Assembly (NCBI RefSeq): GCF_000242595.2
Contig: NC_017098.1
Span: forward strand, 1,116,001-1,180,000
Length of the DNA: 64,000 nucleotides
DNA from: Spirochaeta africana DSM 8902
GTDB lineage: Bacteria > Spirochaetota > Spirochaetia > DSM-27196 > DSM-8902
Direction: 5' to 3'
This document shows positions 44,519-61,063 of this stretch, piece after piece. Position 1 is the first letter of the stretch, and every line of letters starts with the position of its first letter. A program made the position numbers and the translations under genes. A model generated the notes under the pieces. The model was given only the letters and a program-made list of their open reading frames with translations. It did not search any database and was not told where the DNA came from.

Positions 44519-44694
44519 AACCACCTCCGTAATACGAAGTGTAATACAAAAATTTGGACTTGTCAATTTTTCTTCAAGCGCGTTTAGCGCCTGGCTAACA
44601 TTTGCTTAACTTGCATTGCCGTGCCCGTAGGGCTTGGCGTGATTTTTGCGCATGCAAAAATCATGACAAAGGTAATGTCAAGTTGAAGTAGTTG

Positions 44695-46692
44695 GTACGC
44701 CCGACATGGGTACATACTTGAGGGTGCAAGTCCCTTACTGATTCCCACGCATAGGCAAAGTCTATGTGAACAGTTAGCTGAAAGCAAGGGCGGTTTCGCG
44801 AGAACCCGTCTGGAGGAAGCTGGAGCGCAAAACCGGGAGCCGATGAACAAGAACGTGATATCAAGGCCTGGTTCCGGAGGCGAGGCAGCCAATGATGCCG
44901 ATGCCCAGTGGGAGTGGAACAGGGTAAATCACGCGGTTGTCCGGGGACAGTGTGTATCCTTATTCGGGGAGATCTGCCTGTGGGCAATCTGCTCTATTGA
45001 TGTCTGTATTCCCGGTGAAGGATTCCGGGTATCCAAATCCTGGCGAAACAACGTGCGACAGTTGTTTTCGAGCCACACAGTGGGACACAAACCAGTCGCA
45101 GGACAGAGATAGCAGCCGATCGCATCACCGTGAGTAATCACGGATGATTAGCAGGCAGAAGTCAGCAGACGGCATAGTAGTCAACGCCCGGGGTAATGCC
45201 CGGTTCATGGCGAAGGCCGGAACATTCTTTAAGGAGGAGTCTTGTGATTCTCGAACACAACACACGTGACTTGCCACTGGCAGTACAACGGAGGTCCGGC
45301 GGATCATGGAGCAACCAGCCTTGAACACATCTATGATGGAACTGATTCTGGACAACGGGAACATGCATCGAGCCTGGAAACAGGTGAAGCGCAACGGCGG
45401 CAGTCCGGGAGTAGATGGCATTACCATCGACCAATTCCCGCAGCTCGTTCGTTCCCGCTGGCCAGGAATCAGACACGCTTTGCTGCATGGGTATTACATC
45501 CCATCCCCTGTGCTCAGGGTAGAAATACCCAAGAAGTCCGGGGGGATACGGAAGCTGGGCATCCCGACCGTACTCGATCGGGTAATCCAGCAGGCAATTG
45601 CACAAGTGCTGAATCCACTGTTTGACCCGGAATTCTCGGACTCAAGTTTCGGATTCCGCCCTGGGCGCTCGGCTCATGGAGCCATACATCAGGTACACAG
45701 CTACGTTGCATCAGGGTACCGCTACGCAGTGGACGTTGATCTTGAAAAGTTCTTCGACACGGTAGACCATGATATTCTGATGCACCATGTCGGCCGTACA
45801 CTGCGGGATAAACCAGTCTTGCGGCTAATCGGTCGGTACCTGCGAGCCGGCGTCATGGACAAGTGCGGGGGAGTGCGAGTTCCCACGCCGATTGGCACCC
45901 CACAAGGAGGGCCGTTATCACCGCTGCTGTCAAACATTCTGCTGCATCAACTTGATACAGAGCTGGAACGTCGACAGCTGCGATTCGCCCGATACGCCGA
46001 CGATTTTGTGATCCTCACCAAAAGTCGTGCGGAGGGTGATACGATCCTGCGAGAGATCACCGCGTTTCTCGGCAAGAAACTGAAACTGGTGGTGAACCAG
46101 ACCAAAAGCACCGTGGCACCGATACAGAAATGTAGCTTTCTGGGCTTTACCTTCACCGCAAAGAAAATCTGCTGGACACAACGCGCCTACCAGGAATTCT
46201 TGCGAACCGTAAAGCAACTGACCCGCAGATCGTGGGGAGTGTCGATGCAGTACCGATTGTACCGACTGAAGGTGTACATTCAGGGATGGATGAACTACTA
46301 CGGGATATCCCAGTTCTACCGTCCGGTACAAAGCATCGACGAATGGCTGCGGCGACGAATCCGTATGTGCTACTGGAAACAGTGGCGCTACCCCCGAACG
46401 AGGGTACGAAAACTGCTGGAACTCGGTGTCCCAAGAGAATATGCCGTTATCGCGGGCAGTAGCAGCAAAGCCTATTGGCGATTGTCGAAAAGCTATGCTA
46501 CGAACGCAGGGATGTCCAATGCATGGCTTGCACAGCAAGGACTGGTCAACATCAAGCAGCTGTGGTGTAAAGCCCAGGGCTACAGTTGACCGCATCATGG
46601 AACATGTTTGCTCCAGGGAATGAACCGCCCCGTGCGGATCCGCATGCGGGGTGGTGTGGGGGCCGGTGATTAGCAGTCACCGGCTACCCGAT
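44695..46692 (+). mobile_element. Group IIC (attC-type) intron
   Basis: A 1998-bp intron. The 5' end GTACGCCCGACATGGG resembles the group IIC consensus start, and the 3' end has a domain V-like hairpin (46624-46655, CCGCCCCGTGCGGA / TCCGCATGCGGGGTGG) and a domain VI hairpin ending CTACCCGAT. It encodes a maturase-RT in domain IV. It is inserted in an attC between TTG and TTAGAY, antisense to the cassettes, the site and orientation known for group IIC-attC introns. Joining the flanks restores an attC like that at 60374-60380. Confidence 0.85.
45306..46589 (+). CDS. Group IIC intron maturase / reverse transcriptase
   Basis: A 427-residue group II intron RT. The RT domain covers about 20-290 with RT motifs PGVDGITIDQF, IPKKSGGIRKLGIPTVLDRVIQQAI, YAVDVDLEKFFDTVDH, GTPQGGPLSPLLSNI and the catalytic FARYADDFVIL (YADD). 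A group II maturase domain (domain X) follows at about 310-380 (YIQGWMNYYGISQF). No HNH endonuclease is present, typical of class C. It functions in splicing and retrohoming of the intron. Confidence 0.92.
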   Translation: MEQPALNTSMMELILDNGNMHRAWKQVKRNGGSPGVDGITIDQFPQLVRSRWPGIRHALLHGYYIPSPVLRVEIPKKSGGIRKLGIPTVLDRVIQQAIAQVLNPLFDPEFSDSSFGFRPGRSAHGAIHQVHSYVASGYRYAVDVDLEKFFDTVDHDILMHHVGRTLRDKPVLRLIGRYLRAGVMDKCGGVRVPTPIGTPQGGPLSPLLSNILLHQLDTELERRQLRFARYADDFVILTKSRAEGDTILREITAFLGKKLKLVVNQTKSTVAPIQKCSFLGFTFTAKKICWTQRAYQEFLRTVKQLTRRSWGVSMQYRLYRLKVYIQGWMNYYGISQFYRPVQSIDEWLRRRIRMCYWKQWRYPRTRVRKLLELGVPREYAVIAGSSSKAYWRLSKSYATNAGMSNAWLAQQGLVNIKQLWCKAQGYS

Positions 46693-47988
46693 TTAGATGA
46701 AACCACTCATGATATTCTTTAATAAATACTTGTTTCGATAGAATAATTTACTGCCATCTGGAACAACAGCAACATTACTCCCTAAGTAGAAATATTTATT
46801 TTTGTTATATTCACGGAATACTCTTTTATTAAATTCTCTAACCGCCTGATCTATGCTATTGCCTCTTGATTTTATTGTTATACCCATTTTCACAATTAAT
46901 CCAACAAGAAGGTTTTCATTATTAATGCTAATATCGGTAAAATTATCGAGAAAACTATTCAAATCAATTTTGGTAACAATTACAACTTTTTTCTTTTGAG
47001 TCTTTATTGAATTAATAATAAATGAATTTATATGGACGTCACCAAGAGAGGAGCCAATTATTATAATACAATCAGATTTAAAAATATCGAGTGAAAGTTT
47101 TTGAAAAAAAACACTAAATGGAAAAATAGCAAAAGTCTCAATCTTTTCCAAGGTTGTAACCAACCATGTATTGTAATGCTTTCCGACAGAACCTTTTTCA
47201 TAAATTTTGATCTGTTCTCCAACCGTCCTGCTATTAGATTTTTCTATTCTTATATTCTGAGCAACTTTTGCATTATTTTCATGAATGTATTCATCGCCAA
47301 TTAGGTATCCATTAACACTGCCGTGAAGTTGGCATAATGTATTTTCAGTATTCCAAAATTTATCCACATCAAAATTCTTATTAACAAAACAATTATCTAT
47401 ATTTGTTTTCTTTATTGAATCAGACAGTAAATTGTCATAATTAAAGGAATAAAATTGCAGTTCATCGTTTTTATTATTGTGAATTATCCAATTTCGTATC
47501 ATCCTAATATAATAAATCTTTTTATTTAGCCTTCTAGAATATACCTCATTGATAAAGCTGCATATAACCTCGCGGCAAATATAGGGTACGTACATCCATC
47601 CATCACTTGTTGTATTGGTATAGGAAAACTTTGATAAATCTACAAATTCTTCATTGATATTTTCATACTCACCTCCAAAGATATCATTACTAAAACGAAT
47701 ACAGATAGGTTCTAGTATGTGCATTATCTGATCAAATGTTACATATCCAAAATGATTTTCAATATTATTTTTAATATTTACAATCAGATCTGTTATTTCG
47801 CGCCCGTCAATGTTAAATACATAAGATGTGTCCCCGCCAGTATATGCAAGTGTAAATTGGTTTATCAAATTATTCCAACGATTAAAATCAGTCAAAGCGA
47901 TTATTATAGTTTCTGTAGTAATGACATGGTTACAATTCCCAATAAATGGCGTTGATGCTCCAGCACCTAGTATTAATGTGTATCTCAT
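46693..47988 (-). CDS. SIR2-like NAD-binding domain protein (defence candidate)
   Basis: A 431-residue protein. The N-terminus MRYTLILGAGASTPFIGN carries the GAGxS NAD-binding motif; LQFYSFNYDNLL and TLCQLHGSVNG (catalytic His-type motif) and CIIIIGSSLGDVHIN (second GS motif) follow the SIR2_2 order. Proteins with this domain serve as NADase effectors in several antiphage systems (Thoeris ThsA, DSR, SIR2-HerA). Here it is alone in an integron cassette, with a C-terminal region of unknown type (about 340-431). The ATG at 47988 has AAGGA upstream. Very AT-rich. Confidence 0.78.
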   Translation of the reverse strand: MRYTLILGAGASTPFIGNCNHVITTETIIIALTDFNRWNNLINQFTLAYTGGDTSYVFNIDGREITDLIVNIKNNIENHFGYVTFDQIMHILEPICIRFSNDIFGGEYENINEEFVDLSKFSYTNTTSDGWMYVPYICREVICSFINEVYSRRLNKKIYYIRMIRNWIIHNNKNDELQFYSFNYDNLLSDSIKKTNIDNCFVNKNFDVDKFWNTENTLCQLHGSVNGYLIGDEYIHENNAKVAQNIRIEKSNSRTVGEQIKIYEKGSVGKHYNTWLVTTLEKIETFAIFPFSVFFQKLSLDIFKSDCIIIIGSSLGDVHINSFIINSIKTQKKKVVIVTKIDLNSFLDNFTDISINNENLLVGLIVKMGITIKSRGNSIDQAVREFNKRVFREYNKNKYFYLGSNVAVVPDGSKLFYRNKYLLKNIMSGFI

Positions 47989-48056
47989 TATTTCCTTTTT
48001 TGCGCGTAGCCCCATCTAACGACTGCATAACCCGTGAGCGCACAGCGCGAATCGGG

Positions 48057-49405
48057 GATAGTGTCCTGAAACGTTCGCAATTTGAAAAGTAAAAGGAGCC
48101 ATTGGATCCTCCGAAAGGTGTAGTAGCCAAACCATACCAAAGGAGAACACACAATGGCCCCACTCAAAGCTACCGCAGATTTCGAGAAACTTCTATCCCG
48201 TTTCATAGGTGAACAGGATCCTCTGCTTGAAATGCTCAAATGGATGACCGAACAGCTCATGCGCATTGAAGCTGAAAATAAAGCCGGTGCCGTGAAAGGC
48301 AAGCATGTCGCAAATCGGACGACTCATTTCAGCGGTTCTCGTGTCAGAAGATTCGATACCCGTCTGGGCACCATGTACCTCGTCGTTCCAAAGCTGCGCA
48401 AGGGCGGGTACATTCCCTTCTTTGTAACCGAGAAGAAACGCTCGGAACAAGCACTCCTACAGGTAGTGCAGGAAGCATTTATCAACGGTGTTTCTACCCG
48501 TAAGATCGATCGCCTCGCCAAGGAGCTGGGGATTGAATCCATATCAGCCAGCCAGGTCTCTGAAATTAATAAGGGGCTGGATGAACAGGTTCAGCAATTT
48601 CGCAACCGAGAGCTGGATTCAGAATATCCAGTTATCTGGATTGATGCACTGTATGAAAAGATACGCCATGGCCAGAGAGTGCAGAATGAAGCAGTGATGG
48701 TGGTTTGTGGCCTTAATTCTGCTGGAGAGCGCGAAATACTTGCTATAGAGCCCATGGAAACTGAATCAGAGGAAACATACGCCGACCTGTTTCAGCGCTT
48801 AAAACAGCGCGGTCTCAAGCATGTATGGCTTGTGGTATCAGATGCACACCAGGGATTGAAAAATGCAATCCGATCAGAATTTGTCGGCGCATGTTGGCAA
48901 CGGTGTAAAGTGCATTTCATGCGGAATGTCCTCGCCAAAGTACGCAGCAAACACAAGGAACAATTTGCAGAGCGATTAAAGCACATCTGGCTGCAGCCAG
49001 ATCAAGCTACCGCGCGAAAATACGCCAAGCAGCTTATGGATGACTGGGAAGACTCTTGCTCTGATGCAGTCGAAATCCTGGATTCCGGACTTGATGACTC
49101 ACTGCAGTTCTATGCCTTTGCAAAAATCGATGCACGGAAAATCTCGTCCACCAATATGCTGGAGCGATTGAACAAGGAAATCCGTCGACGATCAAAGGTG
49201 GTTGGCGTCTTTCCGTCCAGGGAGTCATACATCAGAATGGTCACCTGCTATCTGATAGAATACACCGAAGACTGGACAACCGGCAGATCGTACATTAAAA
49301 AGGAATCACTGGATGAACAGAAAGAATTCATCCTGAGAACGGTTGCGTAACCAGCCGGAGGCTGATGGCTCCAGGGTGAAATTGCAAACACGTTTGGACA
49401 CTATC
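48057..49405 (+). mobile_element. IS256-family insertion sequence, copy 1 (1349 bp)
   Basis: Terminal inverted repeats start GATAGTGTCC at both ends and continue to GCAATTT. Direct repeats GAATCGGG flank it (48049-48056 and 49406-49413). It contains one transposase gene. A second copy of identical length lies at 52604-53952. Confidence 0.92.
48154..49350 (+). CDS. IS256-family (mutator-type) transposase, copy 1
   Basis: A 398-residue DDE transposase. Catalytic residues lie in VIWIDALYEK (D), VVSDAHQGLKNA (D) and TNMLERLNKEIRRR (E). The C(2)H-like CWQRCKVHFMRN motif is characteristic of IS256/mutator transposases. It is complete and identical in sequence to the copy at 52.7 kb, so it may be active. 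Confidence 0.93.
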   Translation: MAPLKATADFEKLLSRFIGEQDPLLEMLKWMTEQLMRIEAENKAGAVKGKHVANRTTHFSGSRVRRFDTRLGTMYLVVPKLRKGGYIPFFVTEKKRSEQALLQVVQEAFINGVSTRKIDRLAKELGIESISASQVSEINKGLDEQVQQFRNRELDSEYPVIWIDALYEKIRHGQRVQNEAVMVVCGLNSAGEREILAIEPMETESEETYADLFQRLKQRGLKHVWLVVSDAHQGLKNAIRSEFVGACWQRCKVHFMRNVLAKVRSKHKEQFAERLKHIWLQPDQATARKYAKQLMDDWEDSCSDAVEILDSGLDDSLQFYAFAKIDARKISSTNMLERLNKEIRRRSKVVGVFPSRESYIRMVTCYLIEYTEDWTTGRSYIKKESLDEQKEFILRTVA

Positions 49406-49436
49406 GAATCGGGTTGATGTACAAGTTAAAACTCTT

Positions 49437-50020: not shown

Positions 50021-50106
50021 TTTTAACGTCTCGCATCACTGGGCACAAAAAGCAGAGCGAGGAACGAGCGGCGCATTTGTGATCCGAGTGCATGCGTTTG
50101 TTAGCC
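50021..50106 (-). repeat. attC site (86 bp)
   Basis: Plus-strand cores TTTTAAC (50021-50027) and GTTAGCC (50100-50106). The arms pair imperfectly: CGCATGCACT against AGTGATGCG. It follows the PD-(D/E)xK cassette in transcription order. Confidence 0.65.
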
Positions 50107-50112
50107 AGCTCT

Positions 50113-51345
50113 CTATTTGTCTGATGGGATATCATATAGTTGTGTAGTGACAATTATTTCCTTTCCCGGCTCTGATTCTTTTACAAGAATGTAGCGAGAG
50201 TCCCCGTCGGCATGATGAAAAACTGTCTTACGATGTTCTGGTAACGACTCCATTGCTTCATGCATCTTCTGCCGCACAGCATTAGAGTCTTTTGTTCGGT
50301 TAAATATCATAAGGGCGCATTTTGAGTCGCGCCAAGTCAGATAACCGAGTAGTTGACCCACGGCTTCGTTAAATACTTTTTGCCCTCGCCAGAATTTACA
50401 CTCAGCAATAAATACATTCTTATTTTCTTCTCGTATGAGAATGTCTGTTTTTCCTGAGGCATTAAATGTTTCCCCAGTTGCCCCTCCTTCATAATGACCA
50501 TTTAATTGTAAAAGAAAATGATCCCGAATCGATTCTTCATCAAGCGACGCAAATGATGCAGGATTACGCTCTATAACCAACGACATACTCTTAATGATTT
50601 CCAATATGTGTTGGTATTCCTTTTCATCGAGCACAGGTTCGGGCTGATATGAGCCTGTTTCCACCGTGGGTTTTTTGGTTGGTTTCGTTCTTCGTTTTGC
50701 GGGGATCGTGAAAGTTGGTGATGCATCTGCCCTTTTTACGGGGATGCCCAACGCAGCAACAGCACCAGTAGTTGCCTGAGCCAGTTCTCTTTTCCTTTTT
50801 AGAGCTTGCTTCACCGTATTCGGAACAGAGTTATTGTGATTCTGTACATCTTTCTTAAGGTAGCCGACAGCATCTTCTAATGATTTTATATTTCGATTTA
50901 TTTCCCCCTTGAGCTGACCCGGGTTGGCTGAATCATCTGGAAAGCTTACACTCAAAATGATCTCTCCGCCTTTTACTTCTATGTCTGGGTAACCGCCCGA
51001 ACTCCATGTAGATGCGCGAACTCTCCAGAGCATAGGATCACCGTCAAATGGAATAGCTATATCAATCTTTGTCCCTCTTACAACAGCGCGCTCCCCAGGA
51101 AAAACAGCTCTATGGAAATCATGACTAACGTCAATCTGAGTACCTGTCTGGTTTTTAATATATTGCTGATCTGAATGAAGAACCAGAGGTTTAATTATCG
51201 CTTTATCAGTAAAATATTCCTCAAGCTCTGTTTCTGATGCTTTCAACACATATTCATTGTCCAGAGCCTTAATTTCATTTGACACTGAATCAACAACATT
51301 TCTGAAAGTAGCAAAGGTATCTCCCTCTCTAAACGGGTACATCAT
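50113..51345 (-). CDS. PD-(D/E)xK nuclease-like protein
   Basis: A 410-residue cytoplasmic protein. The C-terminal third holds a restriction-like nuclease core: SGKTDILIREENKNVFIAECKFWRGQK gives the D...E-x-K catalytic set (about residues 308-333), followed by a helix with EAVGQLLGYLTWRD. The N-terminal two thirds has a beta-rich domain (about 60-135) and a basic linker (KRRTKPTKKPT). It stands alone in a cassette and has no methylase partner. A role in nucleic-acid defence is inferred. AGAGGAA precedes the ATG. Confidence 0.7.
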   Translation of the reverse strand: MMYPFREGDTFATFRNVVDSVSNEIKALDNEYVLKASETELEEYFTDKAIIKPLVLHSDQQYIKNQTGTQIDVSHDFHRAVFPGERAVVRGTKIDIAIPFDGDPMLWRVRASTWSSGGYPDIEVKGGEIILSVSFPDDSANPGQLKGEINRNIKSLEDAVGYLKKDVQNHNNSVPNTVKQALKRKRELAQATTGAVAALGIPVKRADASPTFTIPAKRRTKPTKKPTVETGSYQPEPVLDEKEYQHILEIIKSMSLVIERNPASFASLDEESIRDHFLLQLNGHYEGGATGETFNASGKTDILIREENKNVFIAECKFWRGQKVFNEAVGQLLGYLTWRDSKCALMIFNRTKDSNAVRQKMHEAMESLPEHRKTVFHHADGDSRYILVKESEPGKEIIVTTQLYDIPSDK

Positions 51346-51361: not shown

Positions 51362-51418
51362 GGCTAACAGCGAGCTAACCAGCCGGCTTTGCCGGTCTGG
51401 TTGAGCGCAATGTTAAAC
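51362..51418 (-). repeat. attC site (57 bp) after toxin-antitoxin cassette 1
   Basis: Cores GGCTAAC and GTTAAAC on the plus strand. A near-perfect stem is formed by GCGAGCTAACCAG/CTGGTTGAGCGC around CCGGC-TTT-GCCGG. It shares this sequence with the sites at 52057 and 54110. Confidence 0.85.
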
Positions 51419-51425
51419 GTCTTTA

Positions 51426-51695
51426 TTAACTCACTTCTTTCAGGTTGCCCGTGACATATTTATGCAAGATACTCGTTACCAGGGTTTGATAAGGAATACC
51501 TTCCTCCATGGCTTTGGTTTTCAGTGCTTCTACATCACGTTTGGATATACGGATATTTATTCTATAGTCTTTTATGGCAGTCTTTTTTGCTGCATCTACC
51601 AGTTCCTGCTTTATATTCTCAAAGTTAGCCACTGACTTCCATTCACCGGCTTCTACGGATTCCATTAGTTCTTTTTCTTCTTTCACATTCATCAT
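51426..51695 (-). CDS. CopG-type antitoxin, cassette 1
   Basis: An 89-residue antitoxin. The acidic N-terminal half (EEKELMESVEAGEWKS) probably binds the toxin, and RINIRISKRDVEALKTKAMEEGIPYQTLVTSILHKYVTG is a ribbon-helix-helix domain. The family matches the CopG antitoxin of BrnT-like toxins. It overlaps the toxin gene by 4 bp (ATGA), with the toxin first as in brnTA. Nearly identical to the copy at 52121. Confidence 0.82.
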   Translation of the reverse strand: MMNVKEEKELMESVEAGEWKSVANFENIKQELVDAAKKTAIKDYRINIRISKRDVEALKTKAMEEGIPYQTLVTSILHKYVTGNLKEVS

Positions 51696-51973
51696 TTGTT
51701 CCCTCCAAGATCGTATACTTTGGTGTATTTTCTGCTTGGAAATAAAGTCTTCAAAAAATAGTCTCCATTATCTTCCTTTACACATGGTACACACACCGCA
51801 TAACCATCAATATCAACGATCATAATCAATTGGTTTTGATATTTTTCTTTGTTCGGATTTTCAAAGACATCGATCAAATGTCCTTCTTCTATGGCGACCA
51901 CAATCCGCTCAAACGAAATAGCTCTTTGGTTTTTGAGTTGCTTGTTTTTATCTTCATTCCAATAGAATGCCAT
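51692..51973 (-). CDS. BrnT-like toxin, cassette 1 (intact)
   Basis: A 93-residue protein with the BrnT-like order of a short helix with FYWNEDKNKQLKN, ISFERIVVAIEEGHLIDVFENP, and a beta sheet (LIMIVDIDGYAVCVPCVKEDNGDYFLKTLFPSRKYTK). BrnT toxins are RelE-fold ribonucleases. No Shine-Dalgarno is present and the predicted transcription start coincides with the ATG, so translation may be leaderless. The second cassette copy of this gene is disrupted by an IS. Confidence 0.72.
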   Translation of the reverse strand: MAFYWNEDKNKQLKNQRAISFERIVVAIEEGHLIDVFENPNKEKYQNQLIMIVDIDGYAVCVPCVKEDNGDYFLKTLFPSRKYTKVYDLGGNK

Positions 51974-51979
51974 TGTAAC

Positions 51980-52008
51980 ATGGTACGACTGTGTGTGCCT
52001 TATGTCAA
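51980..52008 (-). promoter_or_regulatory. Promoter of toxin-antitoxin cassette 1
   Basis: TTGACA (minus strand, 52003-52008), a 17-bp spacer and TACCAT (51980-51985). The cassette therefore carries its own promoter and does not depend on an integron Pc. Confidence 0.55.
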
Positions 52009-52056
52009 CGAGAAATGCAGAGTAGATTTCTCATTTGGTTGGGCGCCTTAGCGTCC

Positions 52057-52113
52057 GTTTAACAGCGAGCTAACCAGCCGGCTTTGCCGGTCTGGTTGAG
52101 CGCAATGTTAAAC
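52057..52113 (-). repeat. attC site (57 bp) after toxin-antitoxin cassette 2
   Basis: Cores GTTTAAC and GTTAAAC. The inner sequence is identical to the attC at 51362-51418. It separates the two near-identical toxin-antitoxin cassettes. Confidence 0.85.
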
Positions 52114-52120
52114 GTCTTTT

Positions 52121-52390
52121 TTAACTTACTTCCTTCAGGTTGCCCGTAACATATTTATGCAAGATACTGGTTACCAGGGTTTGATAAGGAATACCTTCTT
52201 CCATGGCTTTGGTTTTCAGCGCTTCTACATCACGTTTGGATATGCGGATATTTATTCTATAGTCTTTTATGGCAGTCTTTTTTGCTGCATCTACCAGTTC
52301 TTGCTTTATATTCTCAAAGTCAGCCACTGACCTCCATTCACCGGCTTCTACGGATTCCATTAATTCTTTTTCTTCTTTCTCATTCATCAT
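52121..52390 (-). CDS. CopG-type antitoxin, cassette 2
   Basis: An 89-residue antitoxin differing from copy 1 at only three positions in the first 25 residues (NEKEEKE, WRSVADFEN). The RHH domain is unchanged. Its partner toxin gene is split by an IS element, so this may act as a free antitoxin against toxin 1. Confidence 0.82.
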   Translation of the reverse strand: MMNEKEEKELMESVEAGEWRSVADFENIKQELVDAAKKTAIKDYRINIRISKRDVEALKTKAMEEGIPYQTLVTSILHKYVTGNLKEVS

Positions 52391-52603
52391 TTGTTCCCTC
52401 CAAGATTGTATGCTTTGGTGTATTTTCTGCTTGGAAATAAGGTCTTCAAAAAATAGTCTCCATTATCTTCCTTTACACATGGTACACACACCGCATAGCC
52501 ATCAATATCCACGATCAGGATCAATTGGTTTTGATATTTTTCTTTATTCGGATTTTCAAACACATCGATCAAGTGTCCTTCTTCTATAGCGACCACAATG
52601 CGC

Positions 52604-53952
52604 GATAGTGTCCAAACGTGTTTGCAATTTCACCCTGGAGCCATCAGCCTCCGGCTGGTTACGCAACCGTTCTCAGGATGAATTCTTTCTGTTCATCCAG
52701 TGATTCCTTTTTAATGTACGATCTGCCGGTTGTCCAGTCTTCGGTGTATTCTATCAGATAGCAGGTGACCATTCTGATGTATGACTCCCTGGACGGAAAG
52801 ACGCCAACCACCTTTGATCGTCGACGGATTTCTTTGTTCAATCGCTCCAGCATATTGGTGGAGGAGATTTTCCGTGCATCGATTTTTGCAAAGGCATAGA
52901 ACTGCAGTGAGTCATCAAGTCCGGAATCCAGGATTTCGACTGCATCAGAGCAAGAGTCTTCCCAGTCATCCATAAGCTGCTTGGCGTATTTTCGCGCGGT
53001 AGCTTGATCTGGCTGCAGCCAGATGTGCTTTAATCGCTCTGCAAATTGTTCCTTGTGTTTGCTGCGTACTTTGGCGAGGACATTCCGCATGAAATGCACT
53101 TTACACCGTTGCCAACATGCGCCGACAAATTCTGATCGGATTGCATTTTTCAATCCCTGGTGTGCATCTGATACCACAAGCCATACATGCTTGAGACCGC
53201 GCTGTTTTAAGCGCTGAAACAGGTCGGCGTATGTTTCCTCTGATTCAGTTTCCATGGGCTCTATAGCAAGTATTTCGCGCTCTCCAGCAGAATTAAGGCC
53301 ACAAACCACCATCACTGCTTCATTCTGCACTCTCTGGCCATGGCGTATCTTTTCATACAGTGCATCAATCCAGATAACTGGATATTCTGAATCCAGCTCT
53401 CGGTTGCGAAATTGCTGAACCTGTTCATCCAGCCCCTTATTAATTTCAGAGACCTGGCTGGCTGATATGGATTCAATCCCCAGCTCCTTGGCGAGGCGAT
53501 CGATCTTACGGGTAGAAACACCGTTGATAAATGCTTCCTGCACTACCTGTAGGAGTGCTTGTTCCGAGCGTTTCTTCTCGGTTACAAAGAAGGGAATGTA
53601 CCCGCCCTTGCGCAGCTTTGGAACGACGAGGTACATGGTGCCCAGACGGGTATCGAATCTTCTGACACGAGAACCGCTGAAATGAGTCGTCCGATTTGCG
53701 ACATGCTTGCCTTTCACGGCACCGGCTTTATTTTCAGCTTCAATGCGCATGAGCTGTTCGGTCATCCATTTGAGCATTTCAAGCAGAGGATCCTGTTCAC
53801 CTATGAAACGGGATAGAAGTTTCTCGAAATCTGCGGTAGCTTTGAGTGGGGCCATTGTGTGTTCTCCTTTGGTATGGTTTGGCTACTACACCTTTCGGAG
53901 GATCCAATGGCTCCTTTTACTTTTCAAATTGCGAACGTTTCAGGACACTATC
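52604..53952 (-). mobile_element. IS256-family insertion sequence, copy 2 (1349 bp)
   Basis: The same ends and length as copy 1, in the opposite orientation. Direct repeats CAATGCGC flank it (52596-52603 and 53953-53960). The DNA differs from copy 1 by only a few silent substitutions. Confidence 0.93.
52659..53855 (-). CDS. IS256-family transposase, copy 2
   Basis: 398 residues, identical in protein sequence to the copy at 48.2 kb. Intact DDE residues. Identity between copies implies recent transposition within this array. Confidence 0.93.
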   Translation of the reverse strand: MAPLKATADFEKLLSRFIGEQDPLLEMLKWMTEQLMRIEAENKAGAVKGKHVANRTTHFSGSRVRRFDTRLGTMYLVVPKLRKGGYIPFFVTEKKRSEQALLQVVQEAFINGVSTRKIDRLAKELGIESISASQVSEINKGLDEQVQQFRNRELDSEYPVIWIDALYEKIRHGQRVQNEAVMVVCGLNSAGEREILAIEPMETESEETYADLFQRLKQRGLKHVWLVVSDAHQGLKNAIRSEFVGACWQRCKVHFMRNVLAKVRSKHKEQFAERLKHIWLQPDQATARKYAKQLMDDWEDSCSDAVEILDSGLDDSLQFYAFAKIDARKISSTNMLERLNKEIRRRSKVVGVFPSRESYIRMVTCYLIEYTEDWTTGRSYIKKESLDEQKEFILRTVA

Positions 53953-54031
53953 CAATGCGCTCAAACGAAATAGCTCTTTCATTTTTGAGTTGATTGTTCT
54001 TATCTTCATTCCAATAGAATGCCATAGTAAT

Positions 54032-54060
54032 ATGGTACGACTGTGTGTGCCTTATGTCAA
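54032..54060 (-). promoter_or_regulatory. Promoter of toxin-antitoxin cassette 2
   Basis: TTGACA (54055-54060), a 17-bp spacer and TACCAT (54032-54037) on the minus strand, as in cassette 1. Confidence 0.55.
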
Positions 54061-54109
54061 CAAAGAAGTGCAAGACAGGCTAGTTCTTCTTTTGGGCGCC
54101 TTAGCGTTA

Positions 54110-54166
54110 GTTTAACAGCAAGCTAACCAGCCGGCTCTGCCGGTCTGGTTGAGCGCCTTGTTATAC
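54110..54166 (-). repeat. attC site (57 bp) after the DRT3 cassette
   Basis: The inner palindrome is the same as in the two toxin-antitoxin attC sites with one base change (CCGGC-TCT-GCCGG). Cores are GTTTAAC and GTTATAC. It marks the end of the reverse-transcriptase cassette. Confidence 0.82.
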
Positions 54167-54362
54167 CCTTTACATAATTTGTTTCCGGATTCCTTTTATT
54201 ACCATACCATCCGGCATTGGTTATTTGACAAGGCGAATTGATTCATGTGGGTCAATCACTGTGTCTTTGGCACCGTGAAGTGCCCAGATCGCTATATGAT
54301 CCACCTCCCACAATTAGAAAAATTTTCTACTTATGAGGCCGTTGCTTTTTTGGGGGAACTAC

Positions 54363-54390
54363 AAAAAAGGTGGCTCGCCAAGACCACCTT
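54363..54390 (-). terminator. Intrinsic terminator of the DRT3 cassette/ncRNA
   Basis: On the minus strand AAGGTGG, a 10-nt loop, CCACC and then six T residues. Longer-range pairing GCAACGG (54339-54345 complement) with CCGTTGC flanks it. Confidence 0.7.
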
Positions 54391-54480
54391 TGTGCAACGG
54401 AACCGGTTTTGATTCAGTTTCGCCGCCGCGCATGTGTGTGTGGCTGCATACAGCCATTAAACTGTCTGACGAAGCGCGTC
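54363..54480 (-). ncRNA. Structured RNA with an (AC) repeat, candidate DRT3 ncRNA
   Basis: About 118 nt directly after drt3b. From the 5' end: hairpin GACG-CGCTT-CGTC (54468-54480); a stem CAGTTT (54459-54464) with AAACTG (54415-54420) enclosing the hairpin TGGCTG-TATG-CAGCCA (54441-54456) and the tract CACACACACA (54433-54442); then a terminator hairpin GGTGG/CCACC with six U residues. A -10 box lies 6-8 bp upstream. DRT type 3 has been reported with an associated ncRNA; that this is it, and that the AC tract is a template, is inference. Confidence 0.55.
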
Positions 54481-54483
54481 TAT

Positions 54484-56610
54484 CTAGTATACCTCTTGGC
54501 TACGCTTCGCGTCCAGTTCTTTTCCAAAATCAAAGTCGTACCAATTAGTAAACCATTGCTGAGACCTGTTATTGCTATCGGTAAAAGTTATAATTTCGTC
54601 TACAAGCGAGGGATCGGTGACTTTAAATAATTCAAGAACTTTCCGCTTCCTATCATAGGGGACATACGGGCAAGAGATTAAATCGAACAAAAGGAAAATC
54701 ATCTCTGCATTTTTATGACAAGTTTCCGAACGCATTCGAATTCTCTCTAGAGCAGTATCAATAATGCGATTTCTCAACGTATTATACCGAACCTTATTCT
54801 TCATATAGAAAAGCGACACTGATATAGAAAAATAGTTTAATGATTTAATCGGCTCGGAATTAATTCCAGTATCTATTGCTTTTATTCCGAGATAAGTACT
54901 GAGCACACTCTCCTCTAACCAATAATCGCGACCAAGCTCTGAAAGTGCGATAAGCAAATAAAGGGTCTCTACTTGAGTTTGTTCAGAGGTTTCATTTTTC
55001 TTAAGAACAAAGCAAACATTATCAAAGATTTGCTTATGCACAGATTGCACCTGTTCTTGCTCAACATGTCCTGTCTTAAGAAACAGGATAACGACCCGGA
55101 GTATGCGACAAAGCCGTATGGTGGTATTCACTCGCGGCGATACAGAGTAGATAAAAAAGAGAAACTCTATGATGCCCTTAATAGCATTAATTAGCTTCGT
55201 CTGCGATCTAAGCTCTGGGCTGACTTTAAGATAGTTTGTAAATATCTTTTCGCACCGCCTCTCCACTATGGCAAGGCTGTAATTCAGCATATCTTTATAT
55301 TCTACGCCACATGTTTTGATGATTGTTTTAAAACTTGTTATTAGAGCATTGGCATTTACATGGACCGAACCCTTGGTTTGCACTTCTCCGCTATCGACCT
55401 CAACATCTTCCAAAGAAAATTTAATTCTTTCTTCAAGCAAACGGGCTATTTGCTGCTTTGCCATTGTGATCTCGGTAATAATAGGCTTTTCATAGGTTAT
55501 TGCTTTGGCCGTATTCAGGTATAGTTTGTATTTTTTAAGCGTGTGCTGAAGATCATCAACAATTTGTGTTGCATCACTTTCATCATTAACAAAGATAAAA
55601 TAATCATCAACATATCTGAAGATTTCATAATCACGTCCATGTAAAAGGGCTTCATTCTTTGCGGCAAGCTTATGCGAGACATCTCTATCAATAGCCTGAA
55701 GTATTACTTCAGCGAAAATGCGCGAAAATTCAGGCCCAATAATTATGCCATGAGTTTCACCATTATTCATATGATGCATTAATTTATCGAAGCGATCTGG
55801 AAATGTCCCGCCATTGAGGTCAAGGGACGCTTTTTGTGCATCCTTCCCAATTACTGCCCATCCTATTGAATGAGAGTATATGCTGTCGAAACACTTAGAA
55901 ATATCAAGCTTGAGTAGCTTATTATATTTTTTCTCAGCACGGTGATATCGATAGGATTCATAAAACTTATATATATTACTGTAATCTTTATAGACAAAAA
56001 ATGACTTAAGGCTCTCATATTCTTGATCAGACTGTTCAACAATCTCGGATTCAGTTGAGAGTCTCTCGAAGTGGAGCTTATCTTGATGGTATCGAACTCT
56101 CGATATTCTAGATGGTGCTCGAATCGTAAAAGAGCTAAGGGACGTATAGTAGAGAATGGTCTCTTTACACCGGTCGTAAAAATCGACTACTAAAAGTTGG
56201 CTCTTAGGATGCGGAATACATAACTCTCTAAATTCTGTCTCTTTATGCCTAACTTTATAACAAAAAGGTATCATAAACCGTTCTGGTTTTGGCTGTCTGT
56301 TCGACTTAGATATTCCTTTGTCGTCAATCTGGTATCGCACAAAATCTGTCAATTTTTCTCCGACATACCTCTGAACAGTCGTAATCCGGTTGGCATTGTC
56401 CGGCATCGCGAACAATAGCATTACGATTTTATCTAGTGCCTTATCTACTTTCAGCCACACAATGGCGTTATCCTCGAAAGAAATTCTATGACGCAATACA
56501 AACGAATAGAAATGACGATTCGAAAACGAAATAGGTATCTCAAACGGCAATACATCTGACAACAAACAGCGCTCTTTTTTATAGGGGAAGCGTACTTGCT
56601 TAATAGACAT
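54484..56610 (-). CDS. drt3b: Antiviral reverse transcriptase Drt3b (UG8-like)
   Basis: A 708-residue RT. The RT core spans about 140-390: LLKLDISKCFDSIYSHSIGWAV (motif with catalytic Asp), GIIIGPEFSRIFAEVIL, and FRYVDDYFIFVND (YVDD box). A long helical C-terminal half (about 400-708) has no maturase or endonuclease signature. The start ATG at 56610 has GGAGG 9 bases upstream and overlaps drt3a by 11 bp. A two-RT operon of about 450 and 700 residues matches antiphage DRT type 3. The gene is AT-rich and cassette-borne. Confidence 0.75.
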   Translation of the reverse strand: MSIKQVRFPYKKERCLLSDVLPFEIPISFSNRHFYSFVLRHRISFEDNAIVWLKVDKALDKIVMLLFAMPDNANRITTVQRYVGEKLTDFVRYQIDDKGISKSNRQPKPERFMIPFCYKVRHKETEFRELCIPHPKSQLLVVDFYDRCKETILYYTSLSSFTIRAPSRISRVRYHQDKLHFERLSTESEIVEQSDQEYESLKSFFVYKDYSNIYKFYESYRYHRAEKKYNKLLKLDISKCFDSIYSHSIGWAVIGKDAQKASLDLNGGTFPDRFDKLMHHMNNGETHGIIIGPEFSRIFAEVILQAIDRDVSHKLAAKNEALLHGRDYEIFRYVDDYFIFVNDESDATQIVDDLQHTLKKYKLYLNTAKAITYEKPIITEITMAKQQIARLLEERIKFSLEDVEVDSGEVQTKGSVHVNANALITSFKTIIKTCGVEYKDMLNYSLAIVERRCEKIFTNYLKVSPELRSQTKLINAIKGIIEFLFFIYSVSPRVNTTIRLCRILRVVILFLKTGHVEQEQVQSVHKQIFDNVCFVLKKNETSEQTQVETLYLLIALSELGRDYWLEESVLSTYLGIKAIDTGINSEPIKSLNYFSISVSLFYMKNKVRYNTLRNRIIDTALERIRMRSETCHKNAEMIFLLFDLISCPYVPYDRKRKVLELFKVTDPSLVDEIITFTDSNNRSQQWFTNWYDFDFGKELDAKRSQEVY
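54486..54515 (-). promoter_or_regulatory. Candidate ncRNA promoter inside the end of drt3b
   Basis: TGGACG (54510-54515), an 18-bp spacer and TATACT (54486-54491) on the minus strand. The predicted start at about 54478-54480 coincides with the first base of the GACG/CGTC hairpin. Confidence 0.4.
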
Positions 56611-57955
56611 GATTCCATACCTCCACTATTTCTGACAGATCCTTAGCTGAAAATTTATGATATTCTCTGGTTTTAAAACCGTTTTTGAACGACTGTTCGG
56701 ACAGCCTGTTTTGCAATTTGGGATTCGTTAAACCAGCTATTTTTTTAGATAGATATTTATCCAAAATTTGTAGATCATCAAGTTTTGTTAGCAATGAATT
56801 CGAAAAGAATATACCAGATACTACATTCTTTTTATTATTAACTAAACGTGTATTGCTAGTTAGAAAACGGACGCGCTTTTCTAGTAAAGCACGCGCTTTA
56901 TTTTCAGTCTTTTTAGGCTTATTCGCCTTCTTAGCATAAGCTGAAAAAGTCAAATCAATACGCTGCTTATATCGGTTTATCTTTTTATCAGTCATTCTCA
57001 GCTCAAGGGAACCAGAACCAATTTGATATTTGTATCCAAGGTATTGAACACAGGCCGTTGCACTTGGATCTGACTTAATAATCTGTGTTTTTTTCTTGTT
57101 TCTTGTTAATCCAAGTCTTTTAATTTCACTGACTATCAAACGCATAAAGGCCATTGTCCCTGTGTTAGGTGACGGACAAAATACAATAATAATATCATCA
57201 ACATAGCGAGCGTAATATAAGACGCCTGGATAGTCGCGAATAGTGCGATCAATATCACGCATATACAATTCAGCGAGATAAGCGCTTATGCCAATTCCTC
57301 TAGGCAATCCGACATCACTTCCAGTTATCGCGCTGTATTCAAATAGGATTCGTCGTATAATCTTTTTTGATGACAATGTAAGAAGCGGATCATCCCTTAA
57401 TTTTTTTAGTATATGTTTTCGAGGGATACTCTCATAGAAAGACGAAATGTCGGTTCTGAGGATATATTTTGGAAACCTATCTCCCAATAATTCACGTAGC
57501 TGGCATACGATCTGATGTCGATTTGCCTGTTTAACCTTATAGAGGCGACGAATATTATGCTGCACCTGTTTTAACGCAAAATATGTCGCCGCGTTATGTT
57601 CGGCAACATATACTTTTTTTGGCATTCCAACATCTACTTCCTTGATACCGAAAGAGAAGCCTTTCGAGTTTATTTGAGAACTAACCTTGTTCAACTCTTC
57701 ATTTAAAAGATCTTCTTTCTGCCCTTTTAGGTCTTCAATATTGGCTATGGCCGCTGCTTTTTTTTCTTCATACTCCTCTTCAGAGAGTGTTGATTTTTTC
57801 TGCTTTAGCTTCCGTAGTTTATTTTTTGCCACGTGGATTTCTTTGCTTATTTCTTCAATATCCGGGAAAAATTCTCCTTCGAGATAATTGCCTTTTCGAT
57901 TTTCAATATCAACGATCTTTAGAAAATTGGTGGCCGAGAAAGATTGATCAAGCAT
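56600..57955 (-). CDS. drt3a: Antiviral reverse transcriptase Drt3a (UG3-like)
   Basis: A 451-residue RT. An N-terminal coiled-coil-like segment (about 30-85, KNKLRKLKQKKSTLSEEEYEEKKAAA) precedes RT motifs NAATYFALKQVQHNIRRLYKV, YILRTDISSFYESIPRKHI (catalytic Asp), GLPRGIGISAYLAELYM and LYYARYVDDIIIVF (YVDD). No maturase domain X or endonuclease domain is present, so it is not a mobile intron RT. It forms an overlapping pair with Drt3b. The reported role of DRT3 is phage defence by RT-dependent DNA synthesis. Confidence 0.75.
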   Translation of the reverse strand: MLDQSFSATNFLKIVDIENRKGNYLEGEFFPDIEEISKEIHVAKNKLRKLKQKKSTLSEEEYEEKKAAAIANIEDLKGQKEDLLNEELNKVSSQINSKGFSFGIKEVDVGMPKKVYVAEHNAATYFALKQVQHNIRRLYKVKQANRHQIVCQLRELLGDRFPKYILRTDISSFYESIPRKHILKKLRDDPLLTLSSKKIIRRILFEYSAITGSDVGLPRGIGISAYLAELYMRDIDRTIRDYPGVLYYARYVDDIIIVFCPSPNTGTMAFMRLIVSEIKRLGLTRNKKKTQIIKSDPSATACVQYLGYKYQIGSGSLELRMTDKKINRYKQRIDLTFSAYAKKANKPKKTENKARALLEKRVRFLTSNTRLVNNKKNVVSGIFFSNSLLTKLDDLQILDKYLSKKIAGLTNPKLQNRLSEQSFKNGFKTREYHKFSAKDLSEIVEVWNHVY

Positions 57956-57965
57956 AATATCTGTT

Positions 57966-58088
57966 TTACCTCATAATTTTGTTATTGTAAATATTTTCAT
58001 AAAATCCAATAAGCGTTTTAGGTAATATCAAGGTGTGATCCTTTTGCCTTACACTATCAATTTCGTTCTTATCGGCTATCTCAAGCAT
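57966..58088 (-). CDS. 40-codon ORF upstream of drt3a
   Basis: A possible small peptide beginning MLEIADKNEIDSVRQKDH and ending YENIYNNKIMR. It ends 10 bp before the drt3a ATG. No ribosome site is visible and the region could instead be an untranslated leader. Included because its composition looks coding and its position would couple it to drt3a. Confidence 0.3.
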   Translation of the reverse strand: MLEIADKNEIDSVRQKDHTLILPKTLIGFYENIYNNKIMR

Positions 58089-58200
58089 ATTAAATAAACT
58101 TCAATCATATTAACACGTATTTTCTTCGACCAAGCACGTGACTTGTCAGTTTCTAAATTATCGTCCGCTTGTGTCTAAATTAGACTTACTACAACGATCG

Positions 58201-58270
58201 AATAGCGCCGTGCTGACCGCTAAATTGCTAGCGCAACGAGTAATTTATCCGTGTGCAGCAACTTGTTATG
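58201..58270 (-). repeat. Possible degenerate attC site
   Basis: A core-like GTTATGC (58264-58270) sits next to the end of the Cys-containing cassette gene, with a short internal inverted repeat GCTA/TAGC. The opposite core is not clear, so the site is tentative. The 57956-58200 stretch has no other recognisable element. Confidence 0.35.
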
Positions 58271-58272
58271 CA

Positions 58273-58932
58273 TTATTTTAACTGCGGCACGCCATCGATA
58301 TTTTCAAGCCATCTATTTATCGATGATTTTTGCTTCTCGGAGATTTTACCTGTTGAGACGATAGTGACTCTGACACCAACTAGAAAGTCAGTTTTTTCTG
58401 GCGGCAGCTTACTTACAGCCACATCGATCCAAAACAAGTAATTGTATATTCTTTGTAGCGCTGGTGGACTCAGTTTGTCTGGAGCTTTAGCCGCAATATT
58501 GTTTATATGCGTAATATCAGATTCTGAAAGCCCATAACTGTTGTACCTCTCATAATATTCTTTCAATACTGAATATGAGCATTTAAGTTCTTTTACAAGT
58601 TTATGCTCTCTTAACATCAGGTATTCAATCGCTCTTTTTTCAGGGTTGCCTTCGGATGTCCAACCTCGCCCTCCGGTACCACCACCTTCTCGATCATTTG
58701 TTGATAAAGTAAACTTTGTCAAATCAGGAATTCCAGATAATGCATCTTCCCCAGCATTATTCTTTGCACACGTCGGGCCAGCGTATAACAACTTTCCGGT
58801 CGCTATATTTTTTAAAACATATGCCTTAAGAGAAGTTAAAGCCTTCGAACAAAAATCACACTTTCTAGTAGTTTCAGTCAGATCACGTCTAATTACCTTA
58901 TATTTCACAATGCATTCCTGAATGTATAACAT
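58273..58932 (-). CDS. Cys-containing cassette protein, unknown
   Basis: About 219 residues. Near the N-terminus RKCDFCSKALTSLKAYVLKN and LLYAGPTCAKNNAG give CxxC and a later Cys, suggesting a small zinc-binding knuckle. A Gly-rich stretch (GGGTGGRGW) and a helical region follow. The C-terminal part (LSPPALQRIYNYLFWIDVAVSKL; FLVGVRVTIVSTGKISEKQ) is of unknown family. The start is uncertain: ATG 58932 lies inside the upstream attC; GTG 58908 has AGGA 8 bases upstream. Confidence 0.55.
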   Translation of the reverse strand: MLYIQECIVKYKVIRRDLTETTRKCDFCSKALTSLKAYVLKNIATGKLLYAGPTCAKNNAGEDALSGIPDLTKFTLSTNDREGGGTGGRGWTSEGNPEKRAIEYLMLREHKLVKELKCSYSVLKEYYERYNSYGLSESDITHINNIAAKAPDKLSPPALQRIYNYLFWIDVAVSKLPPEKTDFLVGVRVTIVSTGKISEKQKSSINRWLENIDGVPQLK

Positions 58933-59012
58933 TTGCTTAACTTGCATTGCCGTGCCCGAAGGGCTTGGCGCGATAATTGCGCATGCAATTATCGTGACAA
59001 AGGGAATGACAA

Positions 59013-60353
59013 GGTAGTGTCAAATATCTTGCGCAAATTCAGCGTCCATCAATCTGTGACCCTGCTGTTATGATGCCTGATGATCGTGATCGTACTCGAT
59101 CATCAGATCCATATTCAGATATTTCCGTTCACTCCATGTTGAGTTCGAGATGTGGCGCAGTCGTGCTGCAACCAGCATCAGTGCTGACTCACCATCAGGG
59201 AACGAACCGATTACACGTGTCCTCCTTCTGATTTCTCGCATGATTCTTTCAAGCCCGTTATTGGTCCTGATCCGTTTCCAGTGTTCGACCGGGAAATAAT
59301 AATACGAGAAGGTTTCTAATGCACCTTCTCGAACGATCTCCGCTGCTTTGGACAATTTCATTTCAATCAGTTTCTTCGCAATCTGGTCTTTCTTTCGGAC
59401 TGCCTCTTCCAGGTTTTCCTGGGCATGAATGGCCTTCAACATGGTTGCAACAGCTTTGACTTTTCCCTGCGGAACAAAGCTGAATACATTGCGGTAAAAA
59501 TGCACTACGCACCGCTGCCACCGGGAATCAGGAAAAAACTCTGGTATCGCTTCTACCAATCCCAGAGACTTGTCAGAGATAAACATCTCCACTGTTTCCA
59601 GTCCCCGGCCTTTCAAATAGCGGAGAAATCGCTGCCAGCTGTCTTTGTCTTCCTTGGTGCCTTCGGCAACCCCGATTATCTCCCTGAAACCATCCTGATT
59701 AACGCCTATGGCTACCAGAACGGATACATTGCGTACTTCACCAGCCCAGGATCGTTTCATCCAGATGCCATCAAGGTAGACATAGGTGTAGCGCTGCTTC
59801 AACGGCAGGTTGCGCCATTTTTCAATTTCTTCGTAGATTTTCTTATTGAGGTTGCTGATAGTTCCTGGTGAGACCTTGGCACCCCAAAGGGCTTCGGTGA
59901 TATCCTCGACACGTCTGACAGAAACGCCAGCCAAGTACATCTCTACCATTGCCTCCTCAACAGAGATCTCGCGTCGCTTATACCGTTCAATAATGGCAGT
60001 TTCAAACGTCACCTTCTTCAGCTTGGGAACCTGCAGATTCACTTCGCCTGCTTTCGTTAGCAGTTTCCTATCATAATGTCCGGCACGATACCCCGTTCGC
60101 TCAGAGCTGCGCTCATGTTTTTGCGCATTACACAGCTGTTCTGCTTCTGCCTCCAGCATAGCGTTCAAGGTTTCCTCCACCGTCTCCCTGACAAAATTAC
60201 CCAAATGGTCTTTGACTTCCTGCTCGTTTATCTCGATAATCTTACCCATGGGGTCCTCCTTCTGACTTGGTTTGGGTCGTACTTAATCAATCGTCAGATT
60301 GAGGACTTTCTTTTTATCGAAACTTGAAATTGCGCAAGATATTATACGTTATC
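59013..60353 (-). mobile_element. IS256-family insertion sequence, second type (1341 bp)
   Basis: The ends carry an imperfect inverted repeat with the common core AATATCTTGCGCAA. Target duplication AATGACAA flanks it (59005-59012 and 60354-60361). One intact transposase gene is inside. It is unrelated in sequence to the copies at 48 and 52.6 kb apart from family membership. Confidence 0.9.
59068..60249 (-). CDS. IS256-family transposase (second type)
   Basis: A 393-residue DDE transposase: TYVYLDGIWMKRS (D), MFISDKSLGLVEAI (D), RTNNGLERIMREIRRRTRVIG (E), and WQRCVVHFYRNVFS. Complete. The N-terminal half has the usual RTGYRAGHYDRKL segment. AGGAGG lies before the ATG. Confidence 0.93.
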   Translation of the reverse strand: MGKIIEINEQEVKDHLGNFVRETVEETLNAMLEAEAEQLCNAQKHERSSERTGYRAGHYDRKLLTKAGEVNLQVPKLKKVTFETAIIERYKRREISVEEAMVEMYLAGVSVRRVEDITEALWGAKVSPGTISNLNKKIYEEIEKWRNLPLKQRYTYVYLDGIWMKRSWAGEVRNVSVLVAIGVNQDGFREIIGVAEGTKEDKDSWQRFLRYLKGRGLETVEMFISDKSLGLVEAIPEFFPDSRWQRCVVHFYRNVFSFVPQGKVKAVATMLKAIHAQENLEEAVRKKDQIAKKLIEMKLSKAAEIVREGALETFSYYYFPVEHWKRIRTNNGLERIMREIRRRTRVIGSFPDGESALMLVAARLRHISNSTWSERKYLNMDLMIEYDHDHQAS

Positions 60354-60991: not shown

Positions 60992-61063
60992 GTCTAACGC
61001 TGCGCTCTGCGGCAAATTTGGAGCGCAGTGGAAAATTTGTCCGACAGCAGCGCTTTGTTATGG
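60992..61063 (-). repeat. attC site (72 bp)
   Basis: Cores GTCTAAC (60992-60998) and GTTATGG (61057-61063). The stem pairs GCTGCGCTC with GAGCGCAG internally, plus CAGCGC. It separates the YaaC-like and kinase cassettes; the YaaC-like stop codon follows immediately. Confidence 0.7.

Follow-up and report, generated by a model that had tools for sequence, protein, structure and literature searches.

A complete DRT3 system with its ncRNA in an integrase-less integron array of Spirochaeta africana, most likely gained as one cassette

We analyzed a stretch of 64,000 nucleotides of the Spirochaeta africana DSM 8902 genome (the window) and found that two overlapping reverse transcriptase (RT) genes and the ncRNA that follows them almost certainly constitute a DRT3 system. 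Taken together, the observations are best explained by a complete DRT3 residing in an integrase-less array and most likely gained as one cassette, an account in which we place high confidence as a whole. DRT3 is already known, as is integron-borne phage defence; no DRT3 within an integron array came up in the literature searched, which took in three primary integron-defence papers of 2025 only as cited in PMC12409362.

Two reverse transcriptases of the DRT3 families

The two RT genes are arranged as follows.

56600..57955, minus strand: drt3a, 451 aa, UG3 (class 2) RT with YVDD; NCBIfam, PADLOC and PDB matches
54484..56610, minus strand: drt3b, 708 aa, UG8 (class 1) RT with YVDD at residues 333-336; NCBIfam, PADLOC and PDB matches

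The original prediction, made from the sequence alone, had described overlapping RT genes of 451 and 708 residues, both with a YVDD box and neither with maturase or endonuclease domains, matching the UG3 and UG8 layout of DRT3. These features were borne out: the minus-strand reading frames share 11 bp (56600-56610), the YVDD box is present in both proteins, and Pfam detects RVT_1 alone in Drt3a and Drt3b, neither of which shows a maturase or endonuclease domain. Both proteins also pass the DRT3-specific NCBIfam models, with 405 bits for Drt3a (NF041747; cut-off 200) and 726 bits for Drt3b (NF041748; cut-off 350). A PADLOC search had been proposed as a check, and in it the Drt3a and Drt3b models surpassed those of all other RT classes; the drt3a product matched Drt3a at 2.5e-121, with RT_UG17 as the runner-up at 1.3e-33, and the drt3b product matched Drt3b at 7.3e-203, with the runner-up class at 1e-43. 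The top PDB matches were likewise DRT3 proteins of solved structure (9z6y_A for Drt3a, 2.1e-30; 26cz_A and 9z6y_H for Drt3b, 1.3e-80 and 2.2e-74).

The probability that both genes instead encode RTs of a group II intron or of another UG class is negligible. A true group II intron RT (45306-46589) does lie 8 kb from DRT3, and generic RT models weakly match both proteins, but the two RTs reach 42 and 73 bits with the NCBIfam group II intron RT model, the cut-off of which is 300, the scores obtained with the DRT3 models are far higher, and the absent maturase domain and the DRT3 ncRNA described below likewise rule out this assignment. Since both proteins match DRT3 models and the group II scores are low, neither of the outcomes named beforehand as contrary to the prediction (another RT class, or a DRT3 match for one protein alone) was observed.

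In Drt3b of the E. coli system EcoDRT3, gating of dATP and dCTP is the task of E22 and R241, with R71 in an assisting role, and synthesis is primed by Y666 (PMC13174585). Alignment to PDB 26cz places E24, R128 and R297 of the S. africana protein at the positions of E22, R71 and R241. The last residue of the S. africana protein, Y708, is the counterpart of Y666; it lines up with a tyrosine conserved at the C-termini of other Drt3b proteins, the C-terminus of 26cz itself being unaligned. Drt3b thus keeps the residues reported as essential or important for gating (E24, R128 and R297), catalysis (YVDD) and priming (Y708), and the locus is therefore an ordinary DRT3 that appears intact. Structure prediction of Drt3b from seven sequences gave pLDDT below 50 for the RT part, with confidence limited to the C-terminal helical part, and a fold search was uninformative.

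The gene order drt3a-drt3b-ncRNA and the YVDD boxes are shared with EcoDRT3 (UG3, UG8 and ncRNA; PMC13174585, PDB 26cz), from which the S. africana Drt3b differs in being approximately 40 aa longer, with an extra stretch around residues 45-107; location in an integron array also sets the S. africana locus apart from EcoDRT3. The two proteins of the DRT3 of PDB 9z6y/9z6z (Drt3a of 426 aa, Drt3b of 650 aa) are members of these same RT families, with matches spanning most of each protein, whereas the S. africana Drt3a has an additional coiled-coil-like N-terminal stretch (approximately residues 35-95) that is common to its closer relatives, and its Drt3b is 58 aa longer. Five alphaproteobacterial DRT3 loci are 64-66% identical in Drt3b and 61-63% in Drt3a and are nearly identical in the first half of the ncRNA; unlike at the S. 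africana locus, no convincing attC was found beside them. Within the phylum, full-length Drt3b is rare in our sample, exceeding the cut-off in 2 of 393 genomes, one of which is that of S. africana.

The DRT3 ncRNA and its template

EcoDRT3 requires an ncRNA located just 3' of drt3b, the 5'-ACACAC-3' loop of which is copied by Drt3a (PMC13174585). A corresponding element, which had gone unnoticed in the original prediction, begins directly after the drt3b stop codon.

54362..54483, minus strand (3' limit approximate): DRT3 ncRNA, from a leave-one-out covariance model, compensatory changes and a terminator
54433..54441, minus strand: ncRNA template ACACACACA, between a GGCUG/CAGCC hairpin and the closing CGCGC/GCGCG stem

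The covariance model was built from five alphaproteobacterial DRT3 loci only, with the window copy left out, and it recovered that copy at 121 bits (E=2e-36), the single match in both the window and the whole genome. The same model also detects the ncRNA of a DRT3 on an E. coli plasmid and of another on a contig from a viral collection. The first 40 bases (54480-54441) are 92% identical to the five alphaproteobacterial loci, the genes of which are approximately 60% identical in DNA. Across eight aligned loci, standard pairs make up 96.6% of the pair cells, and two-sided changes occur in 15 pairs, where shuffles predict 4 and slid partners give 2-4; the alignment was fitted to the structure and is hence biased in favor of covariation. 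A terminator-like hairpin followed by a T-run (54391-54366) closes the ncRNA. Rfam holds no family for the DRT3 ncRNA.

The template is kept as ACACAC or longer in all eight aligned loci. As in EcoDRT3, the loop lies beside a hairpin in an ncRNA directly 3' of drt3b; ACACACACA, which at 9 nt differs in length from the EcoDRT3 motif, is the equivalent of the 5'-ACACAC-3' template. In the ncRNA on the viral-collection contig (L057 6590-6704) the GGCUG hairpin is absent, and the closing stem and the ACACACACA template are retained. On the E. coli plasmid (CP083496; L033 4001-6044) drt3b is split into two open reading frames, and drt3a and the ncRNA look intact.

The array and the limits of the DRT3 unit

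DRT3 is located in an A+T-rich stretch of approximately 43-62 kb, between G+C-richer chromosomal sequence, and presumed cassette genes there are all on the minus strand. The array, at approximately 44.6-62.1 kb, is a CALIN, since it contains no integrase and the only clear integron integrase of the genome, the single one above the model cut-off (C1:1607685), is approximately 435 kb away. No recognisable attC was found near this distant integrase, a protein of 425 aa with approximately 100 extra N-terminal residues (L005 1180-2457). The attC sites and cassettes of the array include the following.

54110..54166, minus strand: intact attC downstream of DRT3, R'' GTATAAC and R' GTTAAAC, with a canonical bottom-strand hairpin of -14.6 kcal/mol
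58200..58271, minus strand: decayed attC of the estX type upstream of DRT3, from blastn, alignment and folding
54116..58205, minus strand: attC-to-attC unit containing DRT3, 4,090 bp between crossover points
60992..61063, minus strand: canonical attC after a YaaC-like gene, in the same orientation and the same array
50021..50106, minus strand: attC after the PDC-S54 cassette, in the same orientation
52113-52057 and 51418-51362, minus strand: sister sites of the DRT3-type attC, following two antitoxin genes
50113..51345, minus strand: PDC-S54 candidate defence gene, a cassette with its own attC (PADLOC PDLC05036, 8.5e-138)

Our own attC scan is weak by itself, yielding approximately five chance matches per 20 kb shuffle; the sites relied upon start no more than 7 bases from a stop codon, recur in the genome, or correspond to attC sites already known. 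The pair of RT genes had been described as bounded by an attC, and this was correct: the intact site (54166-54110) lies after the ncRNA, approximately 200 bp beyond the predicted range of the system, and its core occurs in three copies in the genome, all within the array. The second, decayed site was found upstream, where a 72 bp sequence between drt3a and the gene at 58947-58273 is 86% identical over 65 bp to the estX attC of class 1 integrons, present in over 500 plasmids (blastn); the sequence is also 79-85% identical to marine plasmids, and it matches related sites in Vibrio, Pseudoalteromonas and Saccharobesus. Its crossover triplet is GCT rather than GTT, its arms are broken, and its bottom strand folds unlike those of intact versions. 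Both sites point the same way as the DRT3 genes and as the remainder of the array.

As measured from these two crossover points, the DRT3 unit is therefore 4.09 kb rather than the 3.5 kb of the two genes, and the earlier remark that the cassette would be unusually large is right as to size: in V. cholerae, approximately 130 kb of integron accommodates at least 179 cassettes, which makes about 0.7 kb per cassette (PMC12409362). Homology to other DRT3 loci extends from near the drt3a start codon to just past the terminator, as would be expected of a self-contained module. The proposal that DRT3 is carried as an integron cassette is thus supported by attC sites that flank the unit in a single orientation, and weakened by the decay of the upstream site and the lack of a nearby integrase. 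Because the upstream attC is decayed, the 5' end of the cassette is not provable. On balance, we consider it probable that DRT3 was acquired as one 4.1 kb integron cassette.

The strongest alternative, which we regard as appreciably less probable, is that a real DRT3 is itself no cassette and was brought into the array by illegitimate or IS-assisted recombination, in an event that damaged the upstream attC and displaced most of an older cassette. Such a history would be consistent with the decay of the upstream site, with the abundance of IS256-type insertions in the array, and with the unexplained flanks inside the unit (247 bp upstream of the operon and approximately 195 bp from the terminator to the attC); in addition, no convincing attC was found beside any of the nine related loci examined, close DRT3 relatives included. 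However, the upstream attC is full length and uncut, with scattered substitutions, and no inverted repeats or target-site duplications bracketing DRT3 were found, which also led us to dismiss a transposon around it. Between the terminator and the attC lies a fragment of 30 open codons (54218-54310, minus strand; LWEVDHIAIWALHGAKDTVIDPHESIRLVK) that resembles the end of an alpha/beta hydrolase. This fragment, too, could be taken to favor replacement of an older cassette, but its matches over approximately 400 genomes are at chance level and none is in Pfam, and we rejected LWEVDHIAIWALHGAKDTVIDPHESIRLVK as proof. Acquisition of DRT3 as a cassette remains the reading that we prefer.

The original prediction had also placed DRT3 among other defence-like cassettes. 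PDC-S54 is a strong case, and weaker ones are provided by a SIR2-domain protein and by toxin-antitoxin pairs. The former (46693-48015, minus strand; 440 aa) is a possible defence gene. Within 51362-54109, a cassette encoding an antitoxin and a BrnT-like toxin is duplicated together with its attC (96% over 300 bp), and one of the copies is interrupted by an IS256-type element (approximately 52603-53956) that recurs at 48050-49409. A second attC-like family has two copies, 90% alike (58927-59013 and 44596-44682), one beside an IS256-type element (59068-60249) and the other beside a group II intron with a maturase-type RT (44700-46650, plus strand). The insertion of this intron beside the attC-like sequence (44682-44596) suggests a group IIC-attC intron.

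Proposed activity and implications

In EcoDRT3, poly(dTdG) is produced by Drt3a with the ncRNA and poly(dCdA) by Drt3b, which uses no nucleic acid template; the two pair into double-stranded DNA, which is held in check by RecBCD; phage inhibition of RecBCD leads to its release and to abortive infection (PMC13174585). We infer the biochemistry and the phage trigger of the S. africana locus by analogy with this system, as we also infer its cassette history. By this analogy, Drt3a would produce poly(dTdG) by repeated copying of the ncRNA loop ACACACACA, and Drt3b, primed by its C-terminal Y708 and with E24 and R297 replacing a template, would synthesize the matching poly(dCdA). The two products would then anneal into double-stranded DNA, which may stop infection once a phage blocks RecBCD.

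It is also conceivable, but in our judgment unlikely, that this DRT3 is silent or dead and persists in the array with no function. Cassettes in integron arrays are often unexpressed, no promoter upstream of drt3a stands out above chance, and the nearest clear integrase is distant. Against this, both reading frames, all of the catalytic, gating and priming residues that were checked, and the ncRNA template are intact. The proteins have diverged by approximately 35% from their nearest relatives, yet the template half of the ncRNA is still more than 90% identical, which points to selection.

Integron-borne anti-phage cassettes are known (Darracq 2025, Kieffer 2025 and Getz 2025, as cited in PMC12409362), and those described there are small and streamlined and include no system of more than two genes. 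The S. africana locus resembles these in placing anti-phage genes in an array, and differs in comprising a 4.1 kb unit of two genes and an ncRNA. We lean, with some reserve, toward the stronger proposition that a whole two-polymerase, RNA-templated system travels with its ncRNA as a single 4.1 kb integron cassette; the unit is possibly mobile.

In DRT3, double-stranded repeat DNA is synthesized by a pair of polymerases, one RNA-templated and the other protein-templated; this mechanism was first reported in 2026. The S. africana locus adds a diverged, apparently intact example with measurable covariation in the ncRNA, and places DRT3 in an integron array, where the reported defence cassettes are small. 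If the unit is mobile as a cassette, then integrons can carry multi-part, RNA-dependent defence systems, and integron "defence libraries" would reach beyond the small, streamlined systems so far described.
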